Below are positions 7,234-33,998 of a stretch of 33,998 nt of DNA, piece by piece. The notes under the pieces were generated by a model. That model made no database searches. It saw nothing but the letters and a program-made list of their open reading frames with translations, and was not told the origin of the DNA. The stretch is from an uncultured Bacteroidales bacterium. Its GTDB lineage: Bacteria; Bacteroidota; Bacteroidia; Bacteroidales; Paludibacteraceae. Position 1 is the first letter of the stretch. The number at the start of each line of letters is the position of its first letter. The DNA lies in contig CACXPH010000020.1 of NCBI GenBank assembly GCA_902769535.1, forward strand, positions 1 through 33,998, written 5' to 3'. The translations under genes were made by a program, and so were the position numbers.

Positions 7234-10200
7234 ATGAAGCGATTTCTGCACATACTCATATGGCTAATGACGCTGCTCTTTAGCAGTGTTTTTTCTTGGG
7301 CAGCAGCTGATTGTCCGCTTGATTCTATTCTCACCTTCGATATCGATTCAGTCCTCACGGAAGTTACTGTTTTTACCTATGACGAAGCCGGCCACACGAT
7401 TAGCGAGGTCGTTTGGACCGTCACCGATGGTTCGCGTGTTGGTAAGAGTAAAAAAGAAGATCGGTATGAGGGCAATACGCAAGTGATGACATCCACTTAC
7501 GTGTGGAATAATACGACCTACAAATGGGAAGGCGTTGCTAAAACCGAATACGAATATGCAAATGGCAAAAATACCGCCATTACTGTTTTCGACTGGCCTA
7601 CTAACACATGGTCTGCCAAATCGAAAGAGACTTATGTTTATGATGCAGCAGGTCGCGAGGTTGAGTACTACAAATACATACGAAATAGTAACTCCCAGCT
7701 ATCATTGTCCGAAGGTCGTTTTCACGATTATAATCCAAATGGTAAGCTTATTTTGGAAATTATTTATACAGCTCACGATGGTACGACTTGGTCTGCGGGA
7801 TCAAAAAAAGTGTATGAATATGATGCATCCAATCGTCAAACGTTGGTAGAATATTACTCGTCTTATTCTAACGGAACGTGGAATGGCAGTACACGAGAGG
7901 TGTACAGCTACGATGCGGCCGGGAATAAGACGCTGGAGGAGAAATATTCGGGAATGACTGATGGTGTATGGAAAGGATCTTCCAAATATACGGCTTCGTT
8001 CAATGCAAATAAAAAGGAGACAGAGCATATTAACTTTAAGTGGATCACTACCTCTAAAAAATGGCAGGAGAATACGAGGACCACTAAAGAGTATGATGGC
8101 AATAATGTAACAGATGACGCATCCTATACATGGAGTAATGGTTGGGTAGGAAAGGCACGCACATCTAAAACCTATTCCGGTACGCTTGTTACTTCGGAAA
8201 TCGAATGGAAATGGTCTAGTAATCGCTGGGAGCGTAACAAGACGACAGAAACCCAATATACCGGTTCTAACATCAGTACACAGACTAAATCTGTATGGAA
8301 AAATTCAGGATGGGTAAACGTATCCCAACTCACCAACACGTACGTTTCTAATCATCTCACGGAAGCAAATACCAAGGCTTGGCGCAATGGAGCATGGCAG
8401 GATAGTGTACGCACGGTCAATACCTACGATGCCAAAAATATCAATACTTTATCCGTTACAGCAGTGTATAAGGGATCGGAATGGATGTCTACAGACTCCA
8501 CAACAAGAGAAGTGACCTATACCACGATTGGCTCAATAGACTATGTGCTGGAAGATGTTTCGATGAAATGGACGGCAGCTTCTAATAAATGGGCAGGTGT
8601 TAAACGTGAAACCAAGGAATATGATACATCGGGCAATGTGACCCAATGGGATACCTATACCTATGTGTCTGGGGAGGGGTGGGTAAATAATGTGCGTCGC
8701 CACTATGCCTACAAGGATGGTAATAAGAATCTAGAAACTCTGAATGACTATTTGCAATGGAATAATACCACCAAAGTGTGGAAAGGTACTTCGCGAACAG
8801 AAAAAGAGTATGATGAGACGAATCGTCAGGTCAAGACTTCTATCTACTCTTGGAACGTTCCTCATAATGATTGGGCTGGTGTTTCAAGTTCGGAGGATGT
8901 CTATAAGAATGGCGTTAAAGTAACTACCTATTCCTATACTTGGGATTATGACGATTGGCAATGGATTGGCATGTTCCAACATGATTATACCTATACATCC
9001 TCCGGCAAAGTTGCACAACAAATCGATTGGCGATACAATAAGACTACCGGTTGGTATTACGATACGAGGGTGACCTATACGTATGACAACAAGGAAAGAA
9101 CAATTCGGACGGTAAAAGACGAGTGGGATGCAACGAATAACCGATGGTGTATGACCTCAACCAGCCAAACAACCTATGATGCTGATGCGGATGGAGGAAA
9201 ACTTCGAGAACAGTTAGCGGCTACCGGCAGTAATTGTGCGGTTACAACTTACGCGCTTCAGCACTACATGTATGGTTGTGATCCGCGGTATTATACGATC
9301 CGCTTTGTCAATGAAGATGGCTCTGAACTGAGTCGCGATACGCTGGAATACGGTGCGACCCCCACGCATGACGATCCCATTAAAGAATCCACCGCTCAAT
9401 ATACCTATACCTTTTCTGGCTGGACTCCGGCTATCCAACCCGTCACCGGAGATGCGACCTATACCGCCACCTTTAGCAATACGGTGAATACCTACACCAT
9501 CACTTGGCTCAATGACGATGGCTCTAAACTGAGTCACGAGACCTTGGAATACGGAGCTACCCCCACGCATGATGCTCCCGTCAAAGAGTCCACCGCTCAA
9601 TATACCTATACTTTTGACGGCTGGAATCCGGAGATAATCTCCGTCACGGGTAATGCTACCTACCAAGCTACGTTCTCTAGCACGGTAAATACCTACATAG
9701 TCACGTGGTTGAATGATGATGGTACCGAGATTGGCCATGAGACCATGGAATACGGTGCTGTTCCCTCGCATGACGATCCCGTCAAAGAGTCCACCGCTCA
9801 ATATACCTATACTTTTACCGGCTGGAGTCCGGAGATAACTTCCGTCACAGGCAACGCAACATATATAGCTACATTCTCTAGCACGGTGAATACCTATACG
9901 GTGACTTGGCTCAATGAAGATGGCTCTGAACTGAGTCGCGAGACTCTGGAATACGGTGCAGAGCCTATATATCATGGCGCCGAACCTACGAAAGAACCGG
10001 ATGGCCAATATATCTATACCTTTGAAGGTTGGACTCCTGATGTTGAACCTGTCACCGGAGATGCTACTTACACTGCTACTTTTACCGCTATCAGTTGTGG
10101 GGATTATCCGCTCCTTCCTGTGGTAGATTTGTATGATTGGCTCCTTATGTTGGATGTGCGATCTGCTCGTGCTATGGGGTATGTTTTCAGCGAAGAAGAT

Positions 10201-30647: not shown

Positions 30648-30702
30648 GGTGCGGTAGTTCAGTTGGTTAGAATACCGGCCTGTCACGCCGTAGGTCGCGA
30701 GT
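30648..30702 (+). pseudogene. Truncated tRNA-Asp (GTC)
   Basis: The first 55 nt match bacterial tRNA-Asp: acceptor strand GGTGCGG, D-arm GTTCAGTTGGTTAGAAT, anticodon arm CCGGC CTGTCAC GCCGT with anticodon GTC (30682-30684), then ...GTCGCGAGT. After 30702 the T loop and 3' acceptor strand (expected TTCGAGTC... and CCGCACC) are replaced by unrelated sequence. The last pair of the anticodon stem is C-T, suggesting decay. The integrase gene 136 bp downstream suggests insertion at this tRNA. A functional copy must exist elsewhere. Confidence 0.75.
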
Positions 30703-30732: not shown

Positions 30733-30762
30733 AAATGACTTTCACGATTGTGGAAGTCATTT
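30733..30762. terminator. 13-bp hairpin downstream of the tRNA remnant
   Basis: AAATGACTTTCAC and GTGGAAGTCATTT pair with one wobble around a GATT loop. It could be a terminator or an element-end structure. Confidence 0.5.
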
Positions 30763-30837: not shown

Positions 30838-32076
30838 ATGTTACAACAAAATTTCGGAGCTCTGAGGAAATATGTTCCGGCAGAACTCAAACACAATTCC
30901 AAAGGATGGTACATTGAGTACTACCGCCTTAACCCTATTCTTAATGAGTACGAACGCATTCGGTTGATGATGAACCGTGAACGTAAACGCTGCAAGACAC
31001 TCACCGAGTTCAAACTACAGACCAGTGCAATCATTCTTCAGATCAACAATCAACTCGCTGCTGGATTTATTAACGTCCAGCAAACGCTTCCCTCTTATGG
31101 CTTTGGAGCGCAGGATACTACGTCCGGCGACAATGTGCGTTTCTATACACCTTTAGAGCAGGTGATAGATTTGTATGAAACAGACCGTAGCAAAGAGCTA
31201 AAAGAAACGACTATGCGCAGTTATAGCTGCTTCTGCAAGCAGTTCAAGCAATGGATCCATGCGCACTATCCCACTATGTCTGCTTCGACTTTCTCGCAAG
31301 TACAAGCAAGCCAGTACATGGAATTTGTCTTGGAAGGAAATAACTCCAAGGGAAAAAAGTCCGTCCGCAAGATGATTAACGAAGACCGTGTGAGCGCGCG
31401 TACGTACAATAATAATATAAAGTTAGCGCGCGCACTATTTAGTTGGGCGATAGAGAAAAGCTACGCACGTATCAATCCCTTTGAAAAACTCAAAACGAAG
31501 AAGGAACAGGGTAAAGACCGTACAATCATCCCGAAGGAAGTACGCGATCGGATTGTAGCATATTTCCGTGTGAAGAATCCGGTATTCATTATCATTATGC
31601 AATTGGTGTATAAATCTTTCCTGCGTCCGGTTGAGATTACTCGCGTAAAGGTGAACCAACTGAACTTTGCAGAACATTGTATCGAGATGCATTGCACTCA
31701 GACGAAAAACGGCAAAGCACACAATAGCCGTATGGATAAAGATTTGGAGGCATTGCTCCGCGAGCATATTAAAGGAGCAGATCCGGATGATTATGTTTTT
31801 GGAGCTGGTACATGGTTGCCGGGCAAAACACCTTCCGCGTCACATTCATACACAATCATCTGGGATAGAATGCGTGACGCATTGAAGTTGCCCAAAGAGT
31901 ATCAGTTGTACTCTCTTCGCGATAGCGGCATTAACAACCTTCTCCGCGCAGGTGCGAAAGACTTGGATGTCGTTCAGATCGTTGGTCATAGTGACCTCGC
32001 TATGACATTCCGCTACGCAAATCATGTGGATAAGGACTTGATAAATCGTATCAATAAGATAGCTCCAGAGTTCTAA
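30838..32076 (+). CDS. Tyrosine recombinase/integrase
   Basis: 412 aa (start at 30838; the longer frame from 30748 runs through a hairpin). N-terminal arm-binding-like region (1-100), SAM-like core-binding domain (about 103-210), catalytic domain (about 225-405). Catalytic set: Arg263 (FLRPVEI), Lys near 290 (TQTKNGK), Arg361 (YSLRDSG, where the usual first His is Tyr358), His384 (GHSD), nucleophile Tyr393 (FRYANHV). This pattern is normal for Bacteroidales integrases of transposon or island type. Neighbours: truncated tRNA-Asp upstream, strong terminator and a 25-27-bp array downstream. No other mobility genes are visible, so the element may be a remnant or a small unit. Confidence 0.9.
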   Translation: MLQQNFGALRKYVPAELKHNSKGWYIEYYRLNPILNEYERIRLMMNRERKRCKTLTEFKLQTSAIILQINNQLAAGFINVQQTLPSYGFGAQDTTSGDNVRFYTPLEQVIDLYETDRSKELKETTMRSYSCFCKQFKQWIHAHYPTMSASTFSQVQASQYMEFVLEGNNSKGKKSVRKMINEDRVSARTYNNNIKLARALFSWAIEKSYARINPFEKLKTKKEQGKDRTIIPKEVRDRIVAYFRVKNPVFIIIMQLVYKSFLRPVEITRVKVNQLNFAEHCIEMHCTQTKNGKAHNSRMDKDLEALLREHIKGADPDDYVFGAGTWLPGKTPSASHSYTIIWDRMRDALKLPKEYQLYSLRDSGINNLLRAGAKDLDVVQIVGHSDLAMTFRYANHVDKDLINRINKIAPEF

Positions 32077-32096
32077 AATCTTGTGCCTAAGCGCAC

Positions 32097-32137
32097 AAAA
32101 ATCCGTCTGCTTGCAACCATAAGCGGACGGATTTTTT
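32097..32137 (+). terminator. Strong intrinsic terminator after the integrase
   Basis: AAATCCGTCTGCTT (32099-32112) and AAGCGGACGGATTT (32121-32134) pair with one wobble; T-run follows. A smaller hairpin TTGTGC/GCACAA (32081-32098) precedes it. Confidence 0.85.
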
Positions 32138-32396
32138 ATGTCCATGAGGGCGGTTGTGGAGTGGCAAAAATTAAAAATCCTCGCAAATGCCTGCGAATCA
32201 ATATATTATCTAAATTTAGTACGAATTACACAAATTAGGAACAAAAAGGGTGTTTTTATTCTATCTTATTGATATACAGCTAATTGTAAGAATACGATTT
32301 GCAAGAAAAGCGTACAATTTTAGAACGCGCAGTTCTACAGTTGTGCGTTTTTTTCGGTGATTAAAATCGTAAATTATTGAAAATAAGCCAGATAGC
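32138..32396. other. Gene-free AT-rich stretch
   Basis: I see no gene. The only structure is a terminator-like hairpin AACGCGCA/TGTGCGTT (32324-32349) followed by a T-run. It might end a short RNA beginning near 32270-32300, but no consensus promoter is present. Confidence 0.4.
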
Positions 32397-32422
32397 AGCG
32401 GAAGATAGTAAAATCTTCCGCT
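32397..32422. repeat. Perfect 10-bp inverted repeat at the left border of the periodic array
   Basis: AGCGGAAGAT (32397-32406), loop agtaaa, ATCTTCCGCT (32413-32422). It lies about 50 bp before the first array unit. Confidence 0.7.
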
Positions 32423-32473
32423 CTTTCCCTCTGGAGAGCCCCAACCGCCCTGCTATATTGACGCTCCCAAACG

Positions 32474-32786
32474 AGTCTTCAAAAGCGGAATATGCAGTCA
32501 ACACTTTCAACATTTTCCTCATAAGTCTTGCGTACTTTCTATGCCAAAGGTCTCTCTTATTTAACCAAGCGAAAGTCTTTGCCTTTTCCATTCCCAAGAG
32601 TCTCCTTTCTTCACGCTGCAAGGGTCTTCACTTTGCGCGACCTTACAAGTCTCTATTGTGCACTGACCTTGTGAGTCCTCATCAATTTCATTGACCCCCA
32701 AGTCTCCGTTTGCTCGCCAACCTCGCGAGTCTCTAACCACTCCGCCACCTCAAAAGTCTTTTTGCGCTCGCGCGCCTTTGAGGTCT
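32474..32786. repeat. 25-27-bp periodic array with conserved RGTCY core
   Basis: A/GGTCT (once AGTCC) begins at 32474, 32524, 32549, 32574, 32599, 32623, 32648, 32674, 32701, 32728, 32755 and 32782; a weak copy (AGTCA) is at 32496. Steps are 25, 25, 25, 24, 25, 26, then exactly 27 four times. A second conserved block, ACC(T), sits 4-8 bp before the core in many units (for example ACCTTACAAGTCT, ACCTCGCGAGTCT, ACCTCAAAAGTCT). The rest of each unit is unique. No reading frame fits the period in the 25-bp part. It lies downstream of the integrase and is flanked by hairpins at 32397-32422 and 32800-32832. I know no described element that matches. Confidence 0.8.
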
Positions 32787-32799
32787 TTTATAAACAAAA

Positions 32800-32832
32800 C
32801 TACCGCACGTTTCATCACGAAAAGCGCGGTAG
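32800..32832. repeat. 7-bp inverted repeat at the right border of the periodic array
   Basis: CTACCGC (32800-32806) and GCGGTAG (32826-32832) with a 19-nt loop, 14 bp after the last array core. It could be a border structure or the terminator of the minus-strand hydrolase gene, though it has no T-run. Confidence 0.55.
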
Positions 32833-32882
32833 CGACGAGAAGGGAACCGTCAAAGTGAATTAGATAGTAAACGACAAACGCC

Positions 32883-33491
32883 TCACACCTCGTTTGTGTA
32901 TGATAGTTCAATTAACATCCTCTCTGCCAGCGGCACATACCATGTGCGGACTTCATCAGCGGTGGGAGTATGTCCTCCGGGGAAATGGAATGAACGGTTG
33001 TAGTGCTCTAAGAAGAGCGATTCGAAATGCGCTAAAGTGTCTTGCTCACCGAATAATCCCCACACTTGATCGCTGAATTGAGGATTGTAATTATCGAATT
33101 GAGTTGCCTCCAGTGCAGCAAACTCTTCAACCAAGGCTTCATCTATAACGAATGATTGCTTGCCATCCTTGCGCGGCGATTTATACTCGTGCTGACCTAT
33201 GCGCTGCTTTAGGAACTCTGACATTCGAAAATGCGGATTACCAAGCAAAGCAGGAATGTCCACAACAGGAGCAATCATCTGCGCGTAGAAAGAGCCACAA
33301 CTATTCCCTACGAGCAAATCGGGCTTTTCTCGGTCAGTTAGTTCGCGAATGAAACGTAGCGAGTCCTGCGGATGCATGGGCAAGTCCGGTGTCAGTACAT
33401 CAGCACGCCCTGCGAATGCTTCGCGCAATGCAATAGCAGGAACACATTGTCCGCTTGCATAAAAGCCATGTAGGAATAGTATCTTTTTCAT
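32883..33491 (-). CDS. YqiA/YcfP-like alpha/beta-fold esterase
   Basis: 202-aa cytoplasmic alpha/beta hydrolase. Oxyanion segment FLHGFYASG (residues 6-14), nucleophile elbow GNSCG with Ser64, acid Asp151 (GEQD), His174 (PGGHTP). Size and the HGF...GNSxG layout match the YqiA/UPF0227-like esterases; substrate unknown. Its ATG overlaps the stop of the upstream alkD-like gene (ATGA), so the two are translationally coupled. Confidence 0.82.
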   Translation of the reverse strand: MKKILFLHGFYASGQCVPAIALREAFAGRADVLTPDLPMHPQDSLRFIRELTDREKPDLLVGNSCGSFYAQMIAPVVDIPALLGNPHFRMSEFLKQRIGQHEYKSPRKDGKQSFVIDEALVEEFAALEATQFDNYNPQFSDQVWGLFGEQDTLAHFESLFLEHYNRSFHFPGGHTPTADEVRTWYVPLAERMLIELSYTNEV

Positions 33492-33998
33492 TTCACTCGC
33501 AAGGTTTTTAGCAATGCCTTTTGCTCGTCCGTTATACGATAACTCTCAATAGCCTTTTGAATAGCCTTATTATGCGTCCATGGATGCAAACGATGTTGCT
33601 CTATATAAGGCAGCGTAGCATCCCATTGTTTGGCAAGTGCCGTAGCAAAGAACCATGCCTGCATCATGCGGATGTAATACTCATCGCTTTTGATAGATGC
33701 AACCCATTCCAAGTACTCCGGTCGGAAAGCCTCGTCCAAAAAGTAGCGCATTAGCGTCTCGATGCCAAAGCGTTTCGTATAGGTATGCTTGCTTCTCATC
33801 CACTTGCGAATGAGCGGTAACAACTCCTTCGTGTACTTCTTAAAGCAACACGGCGATAGTTGGTCACATGTTGCCCAATTATCCACATACGGCAGGAAGT
33901 GCTCCAGATATGCAATACAGGTGTTGAAATCTTTCTCTTCCGATAGGATAAACGCGTGCAGTTGGTTCTCGTCAAAATAGCGATGTGGCAAACTGTGC
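33488..33998 (-). CDS. DNA alkylation repair protein, AlkD-like (5' end outside the window)
   Basis: Partial; at least 169 codons are visible and the frame is open to the window edge without an ATG, so the start lies beyond 33998. HEAT-repeat-like helices with the family stretch FLPYVDNWATCDQLSP, KRFGIETLMRYFLDE, YYIRMMQAWFFATALAKQW and PWTHNKAIQKAIESYR fit the AlkD DNA glycosylase type, which removes alkylated bases. The helix containing YVDNWATCD carries the Trp and Asp expected near the active site. It overlaps the esterase gene by 4 nt. Confidence 0.85.
   Translation of the reverse strand, partial: HSLPHRYFDENQLHAFILSEEKDFNTCIAYLEHFLPYVDNWATCDQLSPCCFKKYTKELLPLIRKWMRSKHTYTKRFGIETLMRYFLDEAFRPEYLEWVASIKSDEYYIRMMQAWFFATALAKQWDATLPYIEQHRLHPWTHNKAIQKAIESYRITDEQKALLKTLRVK

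Follow-up and report, generated by a model that had tools for sequence, protein, structure and literature searches.

What is the row of short, regularly spaced RGTC motifs that lies behind a tyrosine recombinase (integrase) gene in an uncultured Bacteroidales bacterium of the Paludibacteraceae (GCA_902769535.1, contig CACXPH010000020.1)? The stretch analysed, hereafter the window, comprises 33,998 nucleotides, and a sequence-only reading had recorded in it twelve RGTCY cores in strict register, for which a recombination or amplification substrate, a protein-binding array and a decayed minisatellite were all considered. Comparison of related loci shows that the array follows a fixed 5' leader, usually precedes a 3' hairpin and is non-coding, and that the whole arrangement occupies two niches, either after an integrase gene or beside a phage tape-measure gene. 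The interpretation put forward here, to which about an even chance is given, is that the array makes up the body of a noncoding element, probably a long RNA, and that this element is a small representative of a family, not described before, that occurs in phages, prophages and tRNA islands of rumen Paludibacteraceae. No description of such an element was found among the titles and abstract openings that searches of open-licence literature returned.

A periodic array with conserved cores

The array contains 13 RGTC cores, with the G of GTC at 32475, 32497, 32525, 32550, 32575, 32600, 32624, 32649, 32675, 32702, 32729, 32756 and 32783; twelve are RGTCY and one (32497) is AGTCA. Core-to-core spacing is 22-28 bp, so 'strict register' was slightly too strong a description, while the two period classes noted earlier are real, being about 25 bp and then exactly 27 bp. 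The longest RGTC chain has 12 cores (24-28 bp steps observed, 24-29 bp allowed), whereas the longest chain in 3000 dinucleotide shuffles of 32471-32790 was three and none of 2000 mononucleotide shuffles attained a chain of five; random sequence does not give a like periodicity. There is no second chain of at least five cores on either strand of the whole 34-kb window. The two inverted repeats said to bracket the array are likewise real, and the integrase stop codon does lie about 400 bp upstream, before the first core (Table 1).

Only the core and the period recur, and repeat finders therefore list no array. Tandem Repeats Finder (minimum score 30) gave no 25-27 bp tandem array at the locus, so the copies are not alike over the whole unit as those of a minisatellite would be, and a direct-repeat finder returned no direct repeats in 32000-33300. 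The earlier judgement that this is not a CRISPR array agrees with the lack of a direct-repeat family in that interval; no CRISPR-type repeat is present at the array, where RGTC alone is conserved. The array was also judged not to be coding, and this too is borne out, because nine of 14 distinct short window-type arrays have no frame open throughout (the other five have one). At the gathering threshold the window has no Rfam match; at E values up to 5, positions 32300-32900 gave three chance-level matches to unrelated families, and 15 relatives (E up to 1 or 0.5) gave only tRNAs and one chance-level microRNA match.

The unit consensus is roughly RACCTC-RAAAGTCTCC, in which the GTC of the unit logos is fixed by how the units were chosen. 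In six pairs from three groups of related loci, chosen by the authors, the four core positions are 99-100% identical against 81%, 89% and 93% for the rest of the unit in the three groups, and the cores thus appear to be under selection, or to have been so until recently. Array length is alike in most loci; L023 has about three whole units fewer than L027. Among the closely related prophage arrays L114, L121 and L122, 83-bp blocks of three units (27+28+28) differ in copy number.

Such shifts by approximately whole units, together with diverged copies of one period, the absence of tail genes from window-type loci and the broken integrases at two of them, are what a decayed minisatellite or some other neutral relic of an old prophage might leave behind. 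This explanation is disfavoured and considered improbable: the cores are kept above the spacers between loci, leader and core persist in different surroundings, and the long prophage arrays lie beside open tape-measure and amidase frames.

Phages and islands alike carry a leader that is succeeded by short repeats at even intervals, the spacers between them differing, and this recalls CRISPR arrays and also TIGR arrays, in which short conserved motifs likewise alternate with variable stretches in phages. A guide-RNA array is nevertheless very unlikely, since in the window type the spacers of different species are orthologous and stand in one order, and so look vertically inherited rather than acquired. 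The repeat is just 4-5 nt and, compared with CRISPR, unevenly spaced. In TIGR arrays there are edge and loop repeats, and the RNAs produced are 36 nt long, according to the excerpted text of the source (PMC12045711), whereas the present unit is mostly 24-31 nt (some are shorter) and has a single core with no dual repeats. Furthermore, a Nop-domain protein (PF01798) was found in none of 10 element-carrying genomes of the genus (control, 4 of 14 genomes), no nuclease was seen among the few neighbours scanned, and no cas genes occurred among the neighbouring genes, a scan that included no dedicated cas search.

One leader in two genomic settings

In the leader a stem (P1) precedes CCCCAACCGCCCTGC, which is separated by about 31 nt from GCGGAATATGC. 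The P1 position is taken, by our reading, by 15 of 22 distinct best stems, and these fall into about six unlike sequence groups that all retain pairing. The genome that holds the window (1.89 Mb, 85% complete) carries a second copy at the end of contig C22, directly 3' of a tyrosine recombinase gene; the two leaders are 81% identical over 150 bp and the two integrases about 30%. When 200 relatives were searched with the leader DNA, 16 genomes matched, 13 of them in the genus (this genome included); the three weak order-level matches (L016-L018) look like A+T-rich chance matches and were dropped. Those loci of the genus that were read have the order integrase, leader, array and 3' hairpin, with some exceptions: L003 ends within the array, in L028 the last units and the hairpin are missing, L022 retains only an integrase remnant, and L034 and L022 have other downstream genes.

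Scanning one genome per species (84,980 species) with the integrase alignment gave 24 loci, most of them from assemblies whose titles name rumen or herbivore-gut Bacteroidales or Paludibacteraceae ('RUG' in such titles is taken to mean rumen). The leader, the RGTC chain or both lie directly behind the integrase in 20 of the 21 loci with enough downstream DNA, which substantiates the suspected linkage to integrase homologues; L050, L052 and L060, where the contig ends inside the integrase, were excluded. The sole exception, L053, is a 40%-identical homologue that is taken to come from another genus. A tRNA gene (tRNA-Asp, tRNA-Leu or tRNA-Gln) stands directly in front of the integrase in all 24 rows displayed, and tRNA-Pro and tRNA-Lys precede the integrases of further loci, so that window-type loci look like tRNA-integrated islands. 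Almost every genome seems to be a metagenome assembly, and contigs frequently stop less than 5 kb from the array; the far end of an island was found in none of the loci examined.

Leader and array are kept where the integrase is broken, in L022/L062 (genome G007) and L051/L166 (G226; open frame of 253 aa). At the tRNA-Gln site of G062 (L079) only about 800 bp separate the tRNA from an array remnant, too little for an integrase, and the remnant preserves roughly three units from the end of the array, of which two have RGTC and one has ATGTC. Partial tRNA-Gln 3' ends or similar sequences follow a shared 'CTCTGTCGATTATTGC' in L079:6421-6680, L059 and L081 and are probably scars of successive integrations. 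One cargo gene of a tRNA-Lys island (L164:6723-7289) resembles, by eye, the ArdA antirestriction protein.

The core-and-period pattern, proposed earlier as a search, found arrays in 20 of 358 family genomes, including long arrays with other spacers and the same leader words, which lie in prophages. L083 (no chain) and, by eye, L101 and L102 were set aside as unrelated repeats, and L097 had no chain of five. A leader pattern (CCCC, three degenerate bases, CGCC[CA]TGC, a gap, ATATGC) matched 39 of the 358 genomes and its reversed control none; in an order-wide sample it matched none of 392 genomes besides the window's own. Six IMG/VR contigs matched a near-identical form of this pattern and eight a looser one, with five in common, giving nine viral contigs in all. 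Only these gapped patterns found viral contigs: the integrase alignment and two exact leader words returned nothing from IMG/VR, and the window array had no match among phage and plasmid records.

In total, 141 locus rows reduce to 44 distinct leaders, of which 21 have an integrase gene within 520 bp upstream, 21 have a tape-measure gene within 520 bp, and two have neither (L126, and L152 with only 137 bp of upstream sequence present). In the prophages the integrase is followed by a 607-aa protein and the tail tape-measure protein; next comes the array, which lies on the opposite strand, and after it a 184-aa protein and then an amidase endolysin. Tape measure (Pfam PhageMin_Tail 2.5e-20; PHROG tape measure 3.1e-55) and amidase were named on L114 alone and traced to other loci by tblastn. 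Where the sequence also includes the integrase, tape-measure-type arrays lie about 6.1 kb away from it. The amidase or the 184-aa protein was recognised on the other side of the array in many of these loci, and within 1.5 kb neither was recognised in, for example, L138, L142, L143 and L146; the 184-aa protein matched no family, and 'spanin' would be a guess only. A tRNA-His gene lies close behind the array in eight of 24 loci scanned (L113, L114, L121, L122, L123, L125, L127 and L150). Among named phages the tape-measure protein has remote relatives only, with less than 60% identity in all 185 records and at most 42% of the query covered among the 25 matches listed.

In an alignment of leaders from 20 chosen loci, the integrase-type L145 is nearest to the tape-measure-type L138 (79%), and the tape-measure-type leader of L128 shares 77% identity with that of the integrase-type L134 and 74% with that of the integrase-type L096. 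From this likeness across niches, the element has probably moved between integrase and tape-measure settings more than once.

These data bear directly on the suggestion that the array serves the integrase. It might provide arm-type sites, decoy att sites or tRNA 3'-end remnants, and the core RAGTCTC does resemble the tRNA T-arm TTCGAGTCTC, GAGTCTC being common to the core and to tRNA-Asp and tRNA-Leu 3' ends. The link to the integrase is real, since 20 of 21 integrase loci carry the array or its leader, and the loss at the G062 tRNA-Gln site of all but about three units along with the integrase is in keeping with it. However, nearly half of the distinct leaders lie beside a tape-measure gene, remote from the integrase, and the same leader and core accompany two integrase classes, INT1 and INT2, that are only about 30% identical, so the putative site sequence does not follow the recombinase. 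Together with the arrays that outlive broken integrases, this argues against the substrate of one recombinase. Arrays also stand behind integrases at tRNA-Pro and tRNA-Lys, the units lack the TTC of the T-loop, and no second copy of the three tRNA 3' ends was present in the set of loci examined for it. A recombination-related array is therefore rated unlikely, and the occurrence of one leader and core at loci with strongly diverged integrases, different tRNAs and different cargo speaks for the noncoding element proposed here. The leader inverted repeat was separately considered as a recombination core site and rejected: allowing up to three mismatches, only the two leaders in the genome of the window carry it, and its sequence varies between subfamilies.

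Bodies, strand and possible function

Three kinds of body follow the leader. RGTC arrays have about 8 to 30 units (up to about 30 in prophages) with steps mostly of 24-31 nt and some of 13-22 nt; in the bodies of L119, L128, L134 and L155 AGTTT, by eye, largely replaces AGTC; and the viral contigs L124, L126, L129, L162 and L163 have G+C-rich bodies. Those of L124 and L129 (about 700 nt) fold better than dinucleotide shuffles, with z scores of -4.80 and -3.68 on the plus strand and -3.42 and -3.16 on the minus strand, have no Rfam match, and on these predictions are a candidate for a new large structured phage RNA. No record of this structured body was found in phages or plasmids, and an exact 31-mer from it occurs in two contigs only, both already known; 393 order genomes were also empty, an answer that shows nothing. 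In L162 and L163 (IMG/VR) the same leader precedes a still larger G+C-rich body of about 1 kb or more.

Window-type bodies, with their strong terminal hairpins included, give z scores of -2.0 to -3.5 on the plus strand and -0.4 to -2.8 on the minus strand. Inside 253 non-redundant units there is no clear excess of complementarity (the largest value, 0.51 against 0.40 expected, concerns neighbouring spacer columns), and on the plus strand the unpaired probability by unit phase is about that of a spacer-shuffled control. The unit is therefore a sequence motif and not a hairpin, and a unit-level RNA hairpin was rejected.

Sequence motifs of this kind could also act in DNA, as double-stranded sites to which a DNA-binding protein of phage or host attaches in replication origin function, partition, packaging or chromatin-like silencing. 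Such a cis element would suit cores without detectable RNA structure, present in about 8-30 copies at near-constant phase and occurring both in phages and in islands, which could draw on a common machinery. It would not lead one to expect a leader stem that changes sequence yet keeps its pairing, nor a structured body behind the same leader, and the spacing, with some steps as short as 13 bp, is looser than the usual phasing of iterons. This alternative is plausible enough to be kept in mind, if on balance doubtful.

For the RNA reading, strand is a further consideration. Fold z scores are stronger on the plus strand in the window type and in L136, L138, L127, L124 and L129, and the P1 stems contain, by our reading, two G-U and no A-C pairs, which also favours the plus strand. 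The lean towards reading the element on the plus strand of the window is only slight, scarcely better than even, because L116 (-5.43 versus -3.75) and L115 (-2.62 versus -1.20) have stronger scores on the minus strand.

This conflict between strands weighs against the proposal of a long RNA, as do several other observations. All 22 stems taken together, upstream hairpins included, have five G-U and five A-C pairs, and 13 detected 3' hairpins have three G-U against ten A-C, although four of the A-C pairs are in probably accidental hairpins. In the largest prophage subgroup the predicted folding of the arrays does not surpass that of shuffles on either strand (z +0.7 to -1.6). L126 has the leader and no recognisable tape-measure gene in 13 kb upstream, and no partner protein except the integrase is kept in both niches. 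As to a promoter, the one candidate is a conserved block in front of the leader.

If the noncoding RNA proposed here exists, it would be long and transcribed from its own promoter, and the array would form a row of about 12 sequence-specific protein-binding sites (up to about 30 in prophages). It could thereby gather a single kind of protein, of phage or host, in many copies and act as a scaffold or sponge in the lytic programme, and the structured bodies might do an equivalent job by folding. Protein binding is the most plausible of the options raised by the sequence-only reading, now as part of a larger noncoding element, and no longer stands level with the minisatellite. A bolder version, offered tentatively as a possibility that is more likely wrong than right, has one fixed leader module with interchangeable bodies, either a folded domain or 'beads on a string' of about 12-30 protein-binding motifs at near-constant phase, so that folded and unfolded multivalent RNA scaffolds would replace each other beside tail genes; tail-less tRNA islands may use the element to parasitise or mimic phages.

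The window locus and comparable systems

Table 1. Positions of the element and adjacent features in the window
Feature	Position	Strand	Remarks
Truncated tRNA-Asp (GTC) gene, presumed island integration site	30648..30702	+	3' part missing
Tyrosine recombinase, 412 aa from ATG (442 aa if TTG at 30748 starts)	30838..32076	+	Pfam Phage_integrase 3.3e-14
Inverted repeat then T run, probable integrase terminator	32097..32136	+	Repeat finder, sequence
Conserved A+T-rich block, candidate promoter region	32354..32396 (approximate limits)	+	Inferred; locus alignments
Leader stem P1	32397..32422	+	Perfect 10-bp arms, 6-nt loop; stems of other sequence at the same place elsewhere
Leader signature CCCCAACCGCCCTGC ... 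GCGGAATATGC	32439..32495	+	Hardly varies among 20 chosen loci
Array body, 13 RGTC cores	32474..32786	+	22-28 bp spacing, shuffles, cores kept between loci
3' hairpin with GCGGTAG	32800..32832		Minus-strand reading: then TTTTGTTTAT
UPF0227/alpha-beta hydrolase gene, nearest of mosaic operon reading towards array	32883..33491	-	Context, outside element

The features of the window locus are collected in Table 1. ARAGORN found no tRNA in the window, while the near-identical locus L039 and eight further tRNA-Asp loci carry the whole tRNA at the same place (that of L062 with one 3'-end mismatch); the part missing from the window may reflect a real attachment-site deletion or an assembly fault. Relatives of the integrase within the genus are 81-83% identical, and the second class is the one at about 30%. 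The A+T-rich block marks approximately where homology starts between loci with different integrases. In the window the T-rich stretch TTTTGTTTAT follows the 3' hairpin on the minus strand, and the hairpin may for this reason also terminate the convergent operon.

In most window-type islands this operon reads towards the array and comprises the UPF0227 hydrolase gene, a GNAT/DNA-alkylation gene and then varying genes. The hydrolase gene adjoins most integrase-type arrays; it was not found beside L022, L034, L119, L134 and L145, which have other gene content behind the same array, and the cargo is therefore no part of the element. In the mosaic operon (window 32883-33998; L026-L028, L031 and L036-L038) hydrolase, GNAT, DNA-alkylation, NUDIX-like and other genes are swapped at gene boundaries, in blocks up to 98% identical inside with unrelated neighbours outside. 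Cassette insertion at the array was considered and rejected, the variable genes lying further out with breakpoints at gene boundaries. Elsewhere in the window, a 201-bp tandem repeat (3.2 copies, 9308-9959) lies within a 1143-aa open reading frame.

The locus resembles an integron platform in combining a tyrosine recombinase with an adjacent cis region and neighbours of one orientation and varying content, but the cargo reads towards the integrase and the element also occurs in phages away from the integrase. Island genes are exchanged at boundaries without an obvious shared site. In three islands only short repeats of 2-3 copies were seen, none recurring at gene junctions, in a search that ran no attC model.

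Parallels are also found among phage RNAs. ROOL and GOLLD are RNAs of phages and prophages, often near tRNAs and of unknown function, as the excerpted text of the source has it (PMC12286853). To the extent of that description the present element is like them in being noncoding, several hundred nucleotides long, at home in phages and prophages and close to a tRNA in part of its loci, as seen in the 21 tape-measure-linked leaders out of 44, the nine IMG/VR contigs and the eight loci with tRNA-His; some of its relatives also have a structured body. It differs in having no Rfam match to either RNA, in that its conserved part is a 5' leader, and in that no folding is detectable in the periodic array that forms the window-type body. 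The most abundant transcript of phage ICP1 is an approximately 800-nt noncoding RNA beside the lysis cluster, and the ICP1 satellites (PLE) also make an abundant noncoding transcript, IIR, by the excerpted account (PMC7567579). On that account the ICP1 RNA shares with the element a position near lysis genes. By description, PLE are likewise phage-related mobile elements with a noncoding transcript, that of the present element being a predicted one; the excerpt makes no mention of periodic cores for IIR (PMC7567579).

ROOL and GOLLD are structurally striking RNAs with no known function. In part of the family described here the body is pared down to a short motif in about 12 to 30 copies, which makes a binding partner directly searchable, and the partner of the array could tell what these bulky phage RNAs do. 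Furthermore, a shared noncoding element links phages with tail-less tRNA islands and may be a mark of satellite behaviour in rumen Bacteroidales.
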